From: an uncultured Cetobacterium sp.
GTDB taxonomy: Bacteria; Fusobacteriota; Fusobacteriia; Fusobacteriales; Fusobacteriaceae
NCBI RefSeq assembly: GCF_947038635.1
Contig: NZ_CAMQXC010000010.1
Location: forward strand, 1 to 37,938
Reading direction: 5' to 3'
Length of the DNA: 37,938 nt
In this document: positions 20,830-26,594 of the stretch, piece after piece
How the letters are laid out: the number at the start of each line of letters is the position of its first letter
Position numbering within the stretch: the first letter of the stretch is position 1
Notes under the pieces: generated by a model
The model's database searches: none
Seen by the model: the letters and a program-made list of their open reading frames with translations, nothing else
What the model was told of the DNA's origin: nothing
Translations under genes and position numbers: made by a program

Positions 20830-21270
20830 ATGAGAGTAATTATATTATTTATAATGTTTGGAAATATGTTATTTGCTAATTCAATTTTGGGATATTGGAT
20901 GACTCAAGAGGGAAAAAATGGAAAGGAAGCTATTGTTTTAATAGAGAAAGAAAAAAATACATATATAGGAAGAATAAAGTATATAGCGACAGTTGATAAA
21001 AAATTTAATATAATAAGTTATACAAATAAAGATGAGATAGTAGATTTTGAGTTAGTAAAAGATTTTCAAAAAATTGATGATGTAACATATAAAAAAGGGC
21101 GGATAATAGATCCGAAAAGTTTAAGAGAGTATTATGCTTCTGTAAAGCTTGAAGGAGATAAATTTATATTAAGAGGTTCACTTGATCCTCATGGAATATT
21201 GGGAGCTAAGAGAGTTTGGAAAAAAGTAAATAAAGAGTATATAAAAAAATATGGTGATGAAAAATTATGA
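20830..21270 (+). CDS. DUF2147 exported protein
   Basis: This 146-residue protein has a short signal peptide (MRVIILFIMFGNMLFA) and the DUF2147 pattern: SILGYWMTQEG near the start, NTYIGRIKYIA, GRIIDPKSLREYYASVKLEG, and RGSLDPHGILGAKRVWKK near the end. DUF2147 proteins are small periplasmic beta proteins without an agreed function. GGAGGG is 13 bases from the ATG, rather far, and no nearer in-frame start exists. Its stop overlaps the start of the NRPS gene (ATGA), so translation of the two is coupled. Confidence 0.82.
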   Translation: MRVIILFIMFGNMLFANSILGYWMTQEGKNGKEAIVLIEKEKNTYIGRIKYIATVDKKFNIISYTNKDEIVDFELVKDFQKIDDVTYKKGRIIDPKSLREYYASVKLEGDKFILRGSLDPHGILGAKRVWKKVNKEYIKKYGDEKL

Positions 21271-24113
21271 TGAATAGTAGAAAGCTATCTCCTAATGAAA
21301 GGATGTATCTAGCATTTGAAAAAAACTATAACTCTTTTGTAATAAATAGGATTGTAGAGGGAAAGGGAGATATTAAGCTAGATACTTTTCAAAAAGCTGT
21401 TAATAAAGTTAGTGAAATATATCCTGAAAGTAGATTTAAATTAAAAAATGGATTTTGGATAGATTCGAAAATTAATCCAAAGGTTATAAAAATTCAAAGA
21501 AGAGATGTGGAAAAAGATTTTAAAGAGTTAATGAAAAGAAAGATAGATTTAACTAAAGAGGTAGCTTGTGAAATATACTATCTTAATGAATTTGATAAAA
21601 TAACAATTATATTTAGAACTCATCATGGGGTAATGGATGGAAAGGGACAAGGAGTTTGGATTGAAGCAATTTTTAAGGAGCTTAATAACTTAGAAGTTGA
21701 AAAATTTTCTTCTAAAATGAGAGACATAGATTTACTAAGAAAAAATGGAATTAAGAAAAGTAGTGATATAGTAACAGTTGGAAAATACTTACCGTTAAAG
21801 AATAGATTATCTTATAAAATTACAGATCCTATCTCTAAAAAAATTGAAATTGATGAGAAAATAAATAGTATAACAGCTAAATTAATAGGGAGTATTCATA
21901 AACTAAGTGAAGATTCTAAAAGTAGGTTTATAATAACTAGAGATATAAGAGAAAAGTTTTTAGAAGAAAAATTAAATACTGGAAATCTGTCGCTACCTAT
22001 GTACTTAGAAACTAAAAGTGACAATTGGCAAGAGATAAATAAAGATTTAATAAATACAATATTAAAAAATGAAGATATAGAATATTCACCAAAGGAGTAT
22101 TTTATATTTGAAAACATTCCAATAAATATTTTAAGTTTAGGATTAAAATATACGATTTTTAACTATAATAGACAAGAAAAAGCTGCAACAACTGCTGTAA
22201 TCTCAAATTTAGGTAGAATTGATTTAGAAAATTATAAAACAAAATACTTTATACCAAATAAAGTTTATGCATTACCAGTTATAACACCTCTAGTCCCATT
22301 ATCTTTTGTAATAACTGAGTTAGAGAATAAAACCATAATAACTGTAGGTTATTATGAAGGTAACTATGAAGAGGAAAAGTTAGAGGAGTATTTAGAAAAA
22401 TTAAAAGATACTCTTTTAAATAGGGTGAAAGTTGAGATTAAAGGGGATAAAGAGATAAAAAAAATTAATATATTTAAAGAGATTTTTAAAAAAATTAATC
22501 AAGAGAATACCTTAGTTTTAGAGAGTAACGAAGAGGTAAGTTATAGAGATATATTTTTTAAGGCTTCAAAAGTAGCCAATTATTTAAAAGAAATAGGAGT
22601 TAATAAAGGAGATAGAGTTTCTATATCAACAAAACGAGATTCAAGTTATTTAATCTCTATATTAGCTTGTATAAAAGTAGGAGCTATTTTTATACCAATA
22701 GATCCAGATTACCCAAGGGAAAGGATAGATTATATAAAAGAGAGCTCAGAAAGTAAGATATTATTAGAATCCTTAGATTTTATTTTAAAAGAGGATGCTT
22801 TAAGTAATCAAAATTTTAAAGAGTATGAAGAGTATGAAGATGAAGATGTGATTTATACTATTTATACTTCAGGAAGTACTGGAAAACCTAAAGGTGTAGA
22901 GATAACATATGGGACTCTTCGTAATTATATATCTAATTGTATTGAAAAATATGAGATAACAGAAGAGAGTATATTTGGATTTTTCACATCAATATCTTTT
23001 GATTTATCTATAACAGCTATTTTTACAACATTAGTAGCAGGTGGAAAAATAGAATTTTTTGATGAAAAAATTACACCAATAACTTTAAAGGCTATTTTTG
23101 AAAATAGTAAAATGAATAGTGTAAAAATGACTCCTACTCATTTGGAAATTATCTCAAAATACGATATAAAAAAAGATAGATTTAACTTAGTTATTATAGG
23201 TGGAGAACAACTAAAAGTAAGTACAGCTAAAAAAGCTCAAGATGTACTAGGAGAGCGTTGTAAAATAGTTAATGAATATGGTCCAACAGAAGCCACAGTA
23301 GGGTGTATATATCATATTTTTGATAAGAATAAAACTTATACAGGAGAGGGATTACCAATAGGAAAACCTCTAGATAATATTGATTTGTATTTAGAGATTG
23401 ATACCAATGAGAATACAGGAGAACTACTTATAGGTGGAGATTGCTTAGCAAAAGGATATTATAACAACTTAAAAGAAACCACAGATAAATTTATATATTT
23501 AGAGAATAAAAGATTTTATAGATCAGGGGATTTATGTAGAGTAAATAAAGATGGCGATTTAGAGTTTTTAGAAAGAAAAGATTTCCAGGTGAAAATTAGA
23601 GGTTATCGTATAGAGTTAGAGGAGATAGAGAAAAAAATAGAGGAATATCCATCAATAAAAGGGTGTAGAGTTATTCCGAACTCATCTAAAAATGCCTTAT
23701 TAGCATACTATATTGGAAAAATAGACCAAAAAGCACTTTTAAAAAATCTTAAAGAAAAGTTACCCGAATATATGATTCCCTACGCTTTTTTCGAAATTGA
23801 TGAGTTTCCATTAAATTCCAATGGAAAATTGGATTTGAAAAAACTTAAAGAGTTAGGACAAAAAGATTTTGAAGACAATATAGATGAGATTACATTATCG
23901 ACTTTTGAAAAAAAGATTGTTAAAATCTGGGAAGAGATATTAGAGATAAAAATAGATAAGAATAAAGTAAGTCGAAATTTTTATGAATTAGGTGCAGATT
24001 CTTTAAGTATAGTTAGGTTTATAAATGAGATAGAACCTTTAATAATCAAGGATGGAATAGAAAAAATTCTATTAAATCCAAATTTAAAAACAATAAATAA
24101 GTATAAAAAATAA
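21267..24113 (+). CDS. Single-module nonribosomal peptide synthetase, C-A-T, predicted asparagine-activating
   Basis: The 948-residue enzyme has three parts. Residues 1 to about 400 form a condensation-like acyltransferase domain with an intact HHGVMDG (119-125) and SNLGRIDL. About 410-845 is an adenylation domain: YTSGSTGKPKG (A3), FDLSITAIF (A4), NEYGPTEATVG (A5), YRSGDLCR (A7), KIRGYRIELEEIE (A8) and NSNGKLDLKKL (A10). The rest is a carrier domain with LGADSLSIV, whose Ser takes phosphopantetheine. Reading the pocket positions by eye gives D-L-T-K-I-G-E-V-G-K, one change from the published asparagine code DLTKLGEVGK. There is no thioesterase, reductase or epimerase, so the acyl-Asn product would need release in trans. 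No phosphopantetheinyl transferase is in the window. Alternative: a C-domain that N-acylates Asn. Confidence 0.85.
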   Translation: MMNSRKLSPNERMYLAFEKNYNSFVINRIVEGKGDIKLDTFQKAVNKVSEIYPESRFKLKNGFWIDSKINPKVIKIQRRDVEKDFKELMKRKIDLTKEVACEIYYLNEFDKITIIFRTHHGVMDGKGQGVWIEAIFKELNNLEVEKFSSKMRDIDLLRKNGIKKSSDIVTVGKYLPLKNRLSYKITDPISKKIEIDEKINSITAKLIGSIHKLSEDSKSRFIITRDIREKFLEEKLNTGNLSLPMYLETKSDNWQEINKDLINTILKNEDIEYSPKEYFIFENIPINILSLGLKYTIFNYNRQEKAATTAVISNLGRIDLENYKTKYFIPNKVYALPVITPLVPLSFVITELENKTIITVGYYEGNYEEEKLEEYLEKLKDTLLNRVKVEIKGDKEIKKINIFKEIFKKINQENTLVLESNEEVSYRDIFFKASKVANYLKEIGVNKGDRVSISTKRDSSYLISILACIKVGAIFIPIDPDYPRERIDYIKESSESKILLESLDFILKEDALSNQNFKEYEEYEDEDVIYTIYTSGSTGKPKGVEITYGTLRNYISNCIEKYEITEESIFGFFTSISFDLSITAIFTTLVAGGKIEFFDEKITPITLKAIFENSKMNSVKMTPTHLEIISKYDIKKDRFNLVIIGGEQLKVSTAKKAQDVLGERCKIVNEYGPTEATVGCIYHIFDKNKTYTGEGLPIGKPLDNIDLYLEIDTNENTGELLIGGDCLAKGYYNNLKETTDKFIYLENKRFYRSGDLCRVNKDGDLEFLERKDFQVKIRGYRIELEEIEKKIEEYPSIKGCRVIPNSSKNALLAYYIGKIDQKALLKNLKEKLPEYMIPYAFFEIDEFPLNSNGKLDLKKLKELGQKDFEDNIDEITLSTFEKKIVKIWEEILEIKIDKNKVSRNFYELGADSLSIVRFINEIEPLIIKDGIEKILLNPNLKTINKYKK

Positions 24114-24151: not shown

Positions 24152-24871
24152 TTACATATATTTTTTCAAAAGGGCTTCATAAGTTCCATCTTTTTTCAAC
24201 TCATCTAAAGCTGTATTGATTTTATTTAAAAGCTCACTATTTTTTTTAGAGATAGCAATGGCATATTCTTCAGGTTCTCCAGATGTTTCAGCTAATTTTA
24301 ATCCTTTATTATTTTTAACATAGTTTAAAGCAGTTTCAGAATCTAAAACAACAGCATCGATTTTATTATTTTGTAACTCCATAACAGCAGCGTAAGAAGC
24401 GTTATATTTTTTTGATTTAACATCTTTCATCTCACTAACTACAACATCTCCTGTAAATCCTAACATAACTCCAACAAGTTTTCCTTTTAAATCATCAAAT
24501 GTTTTAATGTCGTTATTATTATCATTTAAAATAATAACTTGGTTAGCTGTATAGTATGGGTTTGAAAAATTAACAGCCATTTTTCTTTCGTCACTAGCTG
24601 TCATTCCAGCAATAATAATATCTATTTTATTAGTTTCAAGAGCTGGAATCAGTCCATCAAAAGCCATATCTTTAATAACCACGTCCATACCTAATTTTTC
24701 CCCAATAGCTTTAACTAAGTCTATATCAAATCCAACTACCTCACCTTTATCAAGATATTCAAAAGGTGGAAATTCAGCATTAGTACCAACATAAAGCTTT
24801 CCTTTTGCAAAAGTTAGAGTGCTCATAATTAACATTAAAAATAAAACCAAACTTTTAATAATCTTTTTCAT
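24152..24871 (-). CDS. Polar amino-acid ABC transporter substrate-binding protein
   Basis: This 239-residue family-3 solute-binding protein has a signal peptide (MKKIIKSLVLFLMLIMSTLTFA, given here in part: cleavage after LTFA). It then has the standard LYVGTNAEFPPFEYLDKGEV and VGFDIDLVKAIGEKLG; MTASDERKMAVNFS contributes the Arg that binds the ligand carboxylate. Such proteins bind arginine, lysine, histidine, glutamine or asparagine, and the sequence does not settle which. It is the last gene of permease-ATPase-binding protein, whose leader peptide is rich in Arg and Asn codons. Confidence 0.9.
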   Translation of the reverse strand: MKKIIKSLVLFLMLIMSTLTFAKGKLYVGTNAEFPPFEYLDKGEVVGFDIDLVKAIGEKLGMDVVIKDMAFDGLIPALETNKIDIIIAGMTASDERKMAVNFSNPYYTANQVIILNDNNNDIKTFDDLKGKLVGVMLGFTGDVVVSEMKDVKSKKYNASYAAVMELQNNKIDAVVLDSETALNYVKNNKGLKLAETSGEPEEYAIAISKKNSELLNKINTALDELKKDGTYEALLKKYM

Positions 24872-24905: not shown

Positions 24906-25634
24906 TTAATGATTTAAAACCTTTTCAATGAAATCTTTTGCTCTAGAATGATTAGAACCATCAAATAGCTCCTCAGGTGTTGTATCCTCTAAAATAGACC
25001 CTTGATCCATGAATAAAACTCTATCTGCTACTTTTCTAGCAAATCCCATTTCGTGTGTAACTACAACCATAGTCATTCCCTCTTTAGCAAGATCTCTCAT
25101 AACATCTAAAACCTCACGTATCATCTCAGGATCAAGAGCAGATGTAGGTTCATCAAAGAGTATAACTTCAGGATCCATACAAAGAGCTCTAGCTATAGCT
25201 ATTCTTTGTTTTTGACCACCAGAAAGTTGGTCTGGATACGCTAAAGCTTTATCTTTTAAACCAACTTTTTTTAATAAAATAAGAGCTTTTTCTTCAACAT
25301 CCTCTTTTTTCATACCTTTAACTTTCATAGGAGCTAAAGTAAGATTTTCAAGAACTGTTTTATGTGGAAAAAGATTGAAGTGTTGAAAGACCATTCCAAC
25401 TTTAGCTCTCATATGATTTATATCTGTTTTAGGGCTCATAATATCTTCTCCACTGATATAGATATGTCCAAGAGTAGGTTCTTCTAGACGATTTATACAT
25501 CTTAAAAATGTGGACTTTCCGCTTCCAGAAGGGCCAATTACAGCAACGACCTCTCCTTTCATTATATGAGTAGAAACCCCTTTTAAAACTTCAAGTTCTC
25601 CATAATTTTTAAATAGATTATCAACTTTTATCAT
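24906..25634 (-). CDS. glnQ: Amino-acid ABC transporter ATPase (GlnQ/ArtP type)
   Basis: The 242-residue ATPase has Walker [10 protein letters not shown] (about residues 33-41), Q-loop [16 protein letters not shown], signature LSGGQKQR, Walker [14 protein letters not shown] and the H-loop VTHE, as in polar amino-acid importers. It drives uptake together with the adjacent permease and binding protein. Its start overlaps the permease stop by 4 bases (ATGA), so translation is coupled; the binding-protein gene follows after 34 bases. Confidence 0.93.
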
Positions 25635-26296
25635 TTATTACTCAACCCCTTTTCAACACCTCTCATAATTTTTGTAAAAATTCCAACTAAAATTAGATAT
25701 ATTAAACCAACTAAAAGTAGTGGTTCAACTCCTCTATAAGTTTGAGATGTAATGATATTAGCTGATCTTAAAAGATCTACACCACCAATAAACCCAACTA
25801 TAGATGTTTCTTTTAAAAGAGTTATAAACTCACTAACTAATGCTGGAAGTATTTTACGAATAGCTTGTGGAATTATAACCTCTTTCATAGCCATAGGATA
25901 ACTCATTCCAAGAGCTCTAGAAGCCTCCATCTGTCCTTTATCTAGTCCCTCAATACCAGCTCTAATAATCTCTGCAACATAAGCACTAGAGTTTATTCCA
26001 AAGGCAATTCCAGCAACTAAAAATATAGGCATGTCACGGAATCCAGCAAAAATAATGTTAGCCAGAACTAGAAGTTGAACAACTGCTGGAGTTCCTCTAA
26101 TAAGATCAATATAACAAATAGCAATCCATTTGAATCTAGGTGAAAGTCTTAAAAGTGCGATAAAAATACCAAAAATAACACCAAAGATAGCTGAAAAAGC
26201 TGTGACACCAACTGAAAAAGCTAAACCTTGAAGAACATATTGATATCTGTAACCATCAATAAAAATTGTTTTTAGTGTACTTAAGTAATCTCCCAT
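25631..26296 (-). CDS. Amino-acid ABC transporter permease (HisM/GlnP type)
   Basis: This 221-residue inner-membrane permease has about five hydrophobic helices. Its coupling motif is [30 protein letters not shown] (shortened: [10 protein letters not shown] then VIIPQAIR), as in polar amino-acid permeases; [14 protein letters not shown] is another family hallmark. One permease gene implies a homodimer. It is the first structural gene after an attenuator, with AAGGAG 6 bases before the ATG. Confidence 0.92.
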
Positions 26297-26326: not shown

Positions 26327-26371
26327 AAAAAAAGAAGGTCTAAGAGTATAGACTTATACTCTTAGACCTTC
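26327..26371 (-). terminator. Leader terminator (attenuator) of the amino-acid transporter operon
   Basis: A perfect 17-bp stem (26355-26371 with 26334-26350) with a 4-base loop is followed by seven T on the minus strand and lies between the promoter and the permease gene, so it must be bypassed for expression. Its 5' arm CTAAGAGTA (26357-26365) can instead pair with TATTCTTAG (26452-26460) inside the leader-peptide gene: 9 pairs with one wobble. Confidence 0.85.
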
Positions 26372-26441
26372 CAAAATTAAAAGGGTAAATAATTTTGCGA
26401 AAGTAATCCATAGTTATGAGAATAAAAATGGATGGTCAGCA

Positions 26442-26519
26442 TCAAAAATTACTAAGAATATAATAGAATATAGAGTTTTTATTATTTTGTACCCTATTCC
26501 TATCATTTCTAAATAACAT
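26442..26519 (-). CDS. Leader peptide (25 residues) for transcription attenuation
   Basis: A short ORF lies inside the transporter leader, with a perfect SD AAAGGAGG (26527-26534) 7 bases before its ATG. It encodes 25 residues, MLFRNDRNRV then QNNKNS and a hydrophobic end YYILSNF; Arg is at positions 4, 7 and 9, Asn at 5, 8, 12, 13, 15 and 24. Two of the three Arg codons are AGG, unlike the AGA that dominates nearby genes. The codons for Ile-Leu-Ser near its end contain the antiterminator arm, the geometry of classical ribosome-stalling attenuation: stalling at Arg/Asn codons would leave the arm free and allow read-through. Function is inferred from this geometry. It is part of the gene-free stretch 26297-26695. 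Confidence 0.65.
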   Translation of the reverse strand: MLFRNDRNRVQNNKNSIFYYILSNF

Positions 26520-26565
26520 GACCTGACCTCCTTTAAAAAATTCTTAAACTACTAAAGTTTGATTG

Positions 26566-26594
26566 ATTATAAACTATGAAAATAAAATTGTCAA
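26566..26594 (-). promoter_or_regulatory. Consensus promoter of the amino-acid transporter operon
   Basis: Minus strand TTGACA (26589-26594), 17 bases, TATAAT (26566-26571): a perfect sigma-70 match. Start near 26559, giving a leader of about 260 bases. A perfect 10-bp AT-only inverted repeat (26593-26602 with 26607-26616) abuts the -35 and may act as an UP element or operator. Confidence 0.85.

Follow-up and report, generated by a model that had tools for sequence, protein, structure and literature searches.

The question raised by this locus is what a short reading frame containing arginine and asparagine codons does ahead of an amino-acid ABC importer operon in an uncultured Cetobacterium sp., and which amino acid it would read. 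The window analysed here is a stretch of 37,938 nucleotides, corresponding to contig C10 of a genome (G000) of 2.33 Mb assembled in 188 contigs. An initial annotation, made from the letters of this stretch, had proposed a ribosome-stalling attenuator that turns on uptake when charged arginine and/or asparagine tRNA is scarce. The genes that would be under its control are the following:

25631..26296, minus strand: amino-acid ABC transporter permease, first gene of the operon (HEQRo_perm_3TM above cut-off; BPD_transp_1)
24906..25634, minus strand: amino-acid ABC transporter ATPase (top NCBIfam model GlnQ, 324 bits, below its cut-off of 379; ABC_tran)
24152..24871, minus strand: substrate-binding protein, arginine/glutamine type (SBP_bac_3; best chains 4zv1, 6svf, 4prs, 6ggv)

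The three genes are thus arranged on the minus strand in the order permease, ATPase and substrate-binding protein, with the putative attenuator upstream of them. The amino-acid ABC importer that had been predicted downstream of the leader is confirmed by the family models HEQRo_perm_3TM, BPD_transp_1, ABC_tran and SBP_bac_3, as is the assignment of the DNA to Fusobacteriota, the closest named permease matches listed being three uncultured Cetobacterium bins with 92, 89 and 84% identity over the best segment. The substrate-binding protein reached the cut-off of none of the NCBIfam models, the top ones being of the GlnH and Lys/Arg/Orn types. Its nearest solved chains were 4zv1, named 'AncQR', followed by 6svf, 4prs, 6ggv and 6ggp, which the table labels as amino-acid binding proteins; we take the first to be an ancestral Gln/Arg binder and the other four are presumably the Thermotoga arginine-binding protein. 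Matches to ArtJ (2e-43) and to a glutamine-binding protein (4e-42) were nearly equal. Judging from these likenesses, arginine is likely to be the substrate carried by the importer. Across the 12 genomes of the window's genus, two of which are less than 85% complete, argC was found above the family cut-off in none (weak matches in 10) and argH in 7. The genus therefore probably lacks arginine synthesis from glutamate, and with no argC above cut-off the uptake of arginine would matter more. Adjoining the operon, at 21267-24113 on the plus strand of the window, is a gene for an NRPS-like protein of 948 residues, whose amino-acid adenylation domain scores 316.2 bits with TIGR01733, just below the cut-off of 317.4.

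The region upstream of the permease gene contains these elements:

26566..26594, minus strand: sigma-70-type promoter, TTGACA (26594-26589) and TATAAT (26571-26566) separated by 17 nt, 12/12 consensus matches
26526..26534, minus strand: Shine-Dalgarno sequence AAAGGAGGT of the leader ORF, partly inside the 5' arm of the leader hairpin
26442..26519, minus strand: leader peptide ORF MLFRNDRNRVQNNKNSIFYYILSNF, 25 codons and a stop, with Arg codons AGA (4), AGG (7) and AGG (9) and six Asn
26430..26531, minus strand: leader hairpin '1:2', 39 pairs (z -6.86; conservation over 10 genus sequences)
26452..26463, minus strand: predicted antiterminator 5' strand TTATATTCTTAG, within the ORF (pairing, duplex energy, genus alignment)
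26354..26365, minus strand: predicted antiterminator 3' strand CTAAGAGTATAA, shared with the terminator 5' arm (pairing, duplex energy, genus alignment)
26334..26371, minus strand: intrinsic terminator, 17-bp stem and 4-nt loop (only terminator-like site of the region; genus covariation)
26327..26333, minus strand: seven-T tract of the terminator

Most of this anatomy had been described in the initial annotation: the promoter, the perfect Shine-Dalgarno sequence, the 25-codon ORF, the arginines at 4, 7 and 9 and the six asparagines were all found at their given bases on the minus strand, and the 17-bp terminator with its seven T (26333-26327) was exact to the base. Three points required adjustment. 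The promoter has the consensus ascribed to it and lies, at 26594-26566, just outside the coordinates under which it had been reported. The antiterminator, given as 9 pairs between TATTCTTAG (26460-26452) and CTAAGAGTA (26365-26357), is correctly sited and extends to 12 continuous pairs (26463-26452 with 26365-26354). Finally, GGTCAG over the Shine-Dalgarno sequence (26528-26523) does face CTGACC after the ORF (26439-26434), and this is not a separate pairing but the outer end of the 39-pair hairpin that encloses the ORF. In this hairpin the 3' half of the ORF, together with the bases beyond it, pairs with the Shine-Dalgarno sequence and the Arg codons. Its calculated energy is -35.6 kcal/mol (z -6.86) and the fold of the whole leader has a z of -7.83, neither being equalled in any of 200 shuffles. 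Between 26280 and 26720 the terminator is the single terminator-like site (shuffle mean 0.1), while five promoter-like sites occur there (shuffle mean 1.8) and only the one listed matches the consensus at 12/12 positions. The whole window returned no Rfam match at gathering score, by which a T-box or another Rfam family was ruled out.

To identify the amino acid that might be read we collected orthologous leaders. A search with the permease recovered orthologues (E <= 1e-60) in 55 of 98 genomes of the phylum, at 56 places, all belonging to the window's own permease family. Upstream regions of 450 nt were used from 53 of these, since one locus (L141) is broken and two (L123 and L131) lie too close to a contig end. 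These regions were scanned for ORFs of 8-45 codons led by a Shine-Dalgarno sequence and carrying at least three copies of one residue in codons 2-15, with all 20 residues tried in turn. An arginine leader was present in 45 of the 53 regions, against a mean of 1.8 and a maximum of 7 in 40 rounds of dinucleotide shuffling (mean 1.45 in another set of shuffles); with at least two arginines required, the count rose to 49 (shuffle mean 8.1), the four regions in which no such leader was found being L113, L133, L136 and L137. The reverse strands gave none of 53 at three arginines and one at two, and the three-arginine threshold was reached in 7 of 476 other windows of related loci. The initial annotation had named beforehand the leader codons of related species as the comparison on which its proposal should stand or fall, and for arginine the proposal came through it at both thresholds. 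The upstream regions of Firmicutes homologues, 18 of 57 of which returned at least three arginines, were left out of this argument; these matches resemble what random reading of coding DNA richer in GC would give.

The same scan speaks to the other residue in the original proposal, namely that asparagine is sensed, alone or jointly with arginine. Asparagine was the second enriched residue, with leaders in 25 of 53 regions (shuffle mean 3.2, maximum 8), the ORF in the window itself has six of them, and no residue besides these two rose above its own shuffle range in the 53 regions. It is, however, inconstant: it is missing from 5 of the 41 distinct leader peptides, numbers one or zero in the leaders of the argH group described below, and is altered in the frame-shifted 3' half of some leaders, and the AAT beside AGG also serves the pairing of the hairpin. 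In the ten leaders of the window's genus the arginines at 4, 7 and 9 are identical throughout, whereas the asparagine at codon 5 is retained in five and replaced in the other five. Of the two residues first suggested, arginine is thus upheld and asparagine is not favoured; as the main sensed amino acid asparagine was rejected on its lower frequency and inconstancy, and an asparagine or joint reading we consider improbable.

The leaders are alike in little besides arginine, as may be seen from the peptides MLFRNDRNRVQNN... in the window, MLRNFRMRNYRDK... in F. mortiferum (L010, the same as L102), MLRRFRVRNNIN... in F. gastrosuis (L016, the same as L129), and, elsewhere, MVFKIRQERNRIN and MKFVVRRRQFNIL. 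The 41 distinct peptides, 10 to 33 residues in length, had been picked for arginine, such that their residue table is no evidence for this residue and their codon choice alone was used. Their 144 Arg codons comprise 99 AGG, 44 AGA and 1 CGA; at the 49 leader loci the permease genes have 428, of which 341 are AGA, 56 CGT, 21 AGG and 10 CGA. AGG hence makes up 69% of the Arg codons in leaders versus 5% in the genes that they precede, a bias that might render the sensor more sensitive. A further pattern emerges within the genus: in four genomes (G004, G007, G011 and G012) indels put the 3' half of the ORF into another frame, and its bases are nevertheless mostly conserved. With constant Arg codons in front and a frame-shifted, base-conserved sequence behind, the ORF is thus kept as codons in its 5' half and as RNA in its 3' half, which is what an attenuator requires.

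These patterns also bear on the idea of nascent-chain sensing, in which a free metabolite would cause the arginine-rich peptide to arrest its own ribosome. SpeFL is said to sense ornithine by such nascent-chain arrest, and in arrest peptides the residues close to the arrest site are usually conserved. The Arg codons are early and close together, as this idea would have it, and arginine leader peptides working by other mechanisms exist, as far as the available parts of the two reports go (PMC6386406, PMC13009471). Set against it are the slight likeness of the peptides beyond arginine, their range of 10 to 33 residues, the C-terminal frame shifts inside a single genus, and the preference for AGG, for which a peptide-based sensor gives no reason; we regard it as very improbable. 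An RNA switch independent of translation, in which a protein or ligand site or the sequestration of the Shine-Dalgarno sequence does the work and the small ORF is incidental, could draw on the 39-pair hairpin, which is very stable, conserved in the genus and hides the Shine-Dalgarno sequence of the leader. It leaves unexplained both the AGG bias and the fact that 45 of 53 regions, diverse in RNA sequence, have Shine-Dalgarno-led arginine ORFs, and the window has no Rfam match at gathering score; hence we find it scarcely plausible.

If the leader works as an attenuator, the position of the ribosome should decide between terminator and antiterminator, and the alternative pairings were obtained by calculation. 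Transcripts ending at the terminator loop, and so lacking the terminator's 3' arm, were folded with the edge of the ribosome placed 12 nt beyond its A site. In the window the probability of the antiterminator was 0.000 with no ribosome and 0.999, 0.852 and 0.845 when Arg 4, 7 and 9, respectively, occupied the A site, and the antiterminator strand is covered once the ribosome is at the stop codon. By a looser measure all ten genus leaders gave 0-0.01 with no ribosome, 0.82-1.0 when stalled and 0-0.40 at the stop. Among the 47 leaders followed by a detected terminator, the first terminator arm was captured in 32 when stalled, in 1 with no ribosome and in 4 at the stop; in these four, L109-L112, the stop-codon state captures it as strongly as the stalled state. 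A simple antiterminator at the first terminator was not predicted for 15 of the 47, including all of genera g5, g6 and g11. The switch 'stalled on, untranslated off' was observed in 10/10 genus leaders and 31/47 overall, and shuffling the stretch from the last Arg to the terminator produced it in 52% of 200 genus shuffles and 35% of 940 shuffles overall; being so frequent in shuffles, the fold switch alone is moderate evidence.

The duplex energies are more telling. The terminator arm of the window pairs with the RNA after Arg 9 at -18.4 kcal/mol, against a shuffle mean of -10.6 (p 0.010, 200 shuffles). Values of p <= 0.05 were reached in 5 of 10 genus leaders, in 12 of 47 first terminators (29 at p <= 0.2) and in 5 of 23 second terminators (11 at p <= 0.2), these rows being related and not independent. 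When the full-length transcript is folded at equilibrium the terminator has a probability of 1.000 in every ribosome state, and therefore the choice must be kinetic and made during transcription. Over the ten genus sequences the leader hairpin has 377 of 388 cells paired with 1 both-side and 16 one-side changes, the terminator has 154 of 164 cells paired with 6 both-side changes, and the antiterminator, whose strands barely vary, has no both-side change; most of the broken cells come from the most diverged leader, that of G012. A terminator, 17-18 pairs with a T tract in the window, was located by script after 47 of 49 leaders and by eye after the other two (L139 and L140). As a separate observation, two successive terminator-like hairpins lie between leader ORF and permease in, for example, L114, L115, L120, L125, L124, L126, L127, L128 and L132, and in the four loci of genus g14 the arm of the second terminator and the end of the leader ORF form a duplex of -15 to -18 kcal/mol. 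The geometry of trp/his-type attenuation that had been recognized in the window is supported.

We accordingly estimate at roughly 85% the probability that this is a ribosome-mediated transcription attenuator of the trp/his type reading the charging of arginine tRNA. Observed here are the anatomy, its conservation, the Arg codons and their preference for AGG, with the alternative pairings calculated; that ribosomes stall, that transcription terminates at this site in the cell and that arginine is the transported substrate we infer. In the proposed mechanism, RNA polymerase would start at the promoter ahead of the operon and a ribosome would load on the leader ORF. With ample arginyl-tRNA the ribosome would reach the stop codon and mask the 3' half of the ORF, which holds the 5' strand of the antiterminator, such that the terminator forms and transcription stops. 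With scarce arginyl-tRNA it would wait at AGA-4, AGG-7 or AGG-9, masking just the 5' half of the leader hairpin, and the freed 3' half would pair with the 5' arm of the terminator once this is made, letting transcription proceed into the ABC importer. In the absence of any ribosome, the 39-pair hairpin would hold the antiterminator strand and the terminator would again form.

In relatives of the window's genus an extra RNA element, R1, lies near the leader in the genera g4, g5, g7, g8, g13 and g14. It has the form UGNAAAGAUURG - stem - YAUGAGYAUA, which we label kink-turn-like, and was found before the importer at the following loci:

L096-L102, L104, L106, L108-L112, L114-L116, L120-L122, L124-L128, L132, L134, L135, L139, L140: R1 element

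In 20 of the 23 distinct sequences aligned, both-side changes occur at 5 of the 6 stem pairs. With two further pairs included, 98.8% of cells are paired; shuffling gives 88.6% and sliding the strands no more than 76%. Both this value and the covariation score exceed all 500 shuffles, whereas the 5 pairs with both-side changes are reached in 55 of the 500 and the number of further pair types, 9, is below the 10.8 of the shuffles. An Rfam scan of eight loci, five of them with R1, gave no match at E <= 1 overlapping the element. A TPP riboswitch occurs at the F. gastrosuis locus (L016 951-1052; 59.8 bits, gathering score 54.3). We rejected the idea that AUGAGYAUA supplies the start of a second ORF, as the A is changed to G with an opposite U to C in 2 of 20 sequences, and likewise the presence of R1 in the window, there being no match at E <= 0.01 in the whole genome and the window matching just at E 0.72 and 1.1, elsewhere in its length.

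A model of R1 found 50 places in 32 of the 98 phylum genomes. At this importer lie 29 of them, most matching by construction; of the 21 others 20 were taken, a weak one in G014, a genome of the window's genus, being left out. Seven of the 20 precede argC, three precede argH or an apparent remnant of it, and five an NhaC-type transporter with argH behind it; there is one each before a binding protein, before a binding protein together with an argG-like gene, and before an APC-type transporter, and two weak places have no assigned gene. One argC and one argH were identified by family model and one NhaC-type transporter by Pfam, the others being named by likeness. Upstream of 13 of the 20 the script found a leader with at least two arginines (at least three in 7), and one more, at L173, was found by eye. 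In related genera arginine leaders hence stand before argC and argH operons as well, and their occurrence before several kinds of arginine genes supports the arginine reading of the window. Four of the seven argC loci (L176, L177, L184 and L185) have a second arginine leader in tandem, and in these four a terminator-like hairpin was seen by eye after each leader.

At L172 and L180 the element stands before a terminator with no arginine leader ahead of it, and in genus g7 (L139 and L140) it lies upstream of the leader ORF, on account of which R1 might itself be a second arginine sensor. One could then envisage an arginine regulon of Fusobacteriaceae, comprising the importer, the argC and argH operons and some related transporters, that is run by AGG leaders joined to R1 as an aptamer or protein site, with the window as the peptide-only form; this we offer as a tentative and rather doubtful extension. 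In other phyla R1 was not found: the model had no match in ten genomes and none, at E 1e-4, in 291 genomes of the class of a Roseburia hominis genome, where no more than 19 candidates were scored per genome and the empty result shows little.

A second conserved RNA was encountered at NhaC-argH loci, and represents a candidate riboswitch class of 123 nt in 5' untranslated regions with the core GAGCCUAAGGCCGAUGGC...GCUGCCAU:

L216 614-736 (G000:C24), L217-L221, L235-L248: 123-nt 5'UTR RNA

It has 45 matches in 17 of the 98 phylum genomes, one to five in each, and precedes an NhaC-type transporter with argH, a DcuC-family transporter, and Gate-domain and AstE/AspA-like proteins (one of each identified by Pfam). 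Nine sequences display both-side changes at 15 of 30 predicted pairs. When nine loci were compared with Rfam, nothing reached the gathering score, the sole overlap at E <= 1 being VrrA in L248 (26.3 bits versus the required 50). In Cetobacterium this RNA occupies the place that arginine leaders have before NhaC-argH in related genera, which makes arginine or a relative a candidate ligand, as judged from its genomic position.

If the attenuator reading holds, arginine uptake in a bacterial family, and in some genera arginine synthesis too, is controlled chiefly via one rare codon, and a poorly characterised importer gains a functional label, arginine uptake. The AGG bias (69% versus 5%) offers a natural series for testing ideas on the choice of codons in attenuators, and the RNA element of the relatives deserves a structure and a search for its ligand or protein. 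To our knowledge, arginine is not among the amino acids usually described as being under classic terminator/antiterminator leader-peptide control. A full-text literature search, largely without subscription papers, returned no account of attenuation by arginine leaders in Fusobacteria.

Among known systems, the trp and his leaders of enterobacteria combine a leader ORF bearing control codons, alternative 1:2, 2:3 and 3:4 hairpins, an intrinsic terminator and a promoter of their own. The window shares the control-codon ORF, the alternative hairpins, the intrinsic terminator and the own promoter, and differs in the amino acid, arginine, in the importer operon that it precedes, in a 1:2 hairpin that includes the Shine-Dalgarno sequence and the whole ORF, and in belonging to another phylum. 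The potE gene encodes a transporter. It is part of the Salmonella speF operon, where the Arg codons of a short leader ORF, orf34, answer to arginine supply, such that both the leader with Arg codons and the transporter gene in the operon resemble the window (PMC6386406). Unlike in the window, control there involves the speF ribosome-binding site, Rho and a structure sensitive to RNase G, with no Rho-independent terminator in the 5' untranslated region, as far as the available part of that report goes (PMC6386406). In Staphylococcus aureus the rbfL leader, with AGA and the rare AGG, similarly senses arginine restriction; it differs in exerting translational control over a regulator gene by blocking a ribosome-binding site, the accessible sections making no mention of a terminator switch (PMC13009471). 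A leader for S4 has been described in Fusobacteria, arginine being unmentioned in the portion of the source at hand (PMC7247131). The trpB motif, compared by description and not by alignment, resembles the window in being found in 5' untranslated regions of Firmicutes and Fusobacteria, mostly before an uncharacterised ABC transporter resembling amino-acid ones, and in having a hairpin and a terminator with an antiterminator; its authors keep a classic attenuator possible, and a leader ORF, unlike in the window, goes unmentioned in the available part of their text (PMC11109978). Lastly, the uORFC-8-2 leader of cysS differs in its amino acid, cysteine, in its occurrence in Rhodobacterales and in preceding a tRNA synthetase gene, and, as far as the available part of its description goes, resembles the window in being a case of ribosome-mediated attenuation predicted from conserved control codons via comparative genomics (PMC8632094).
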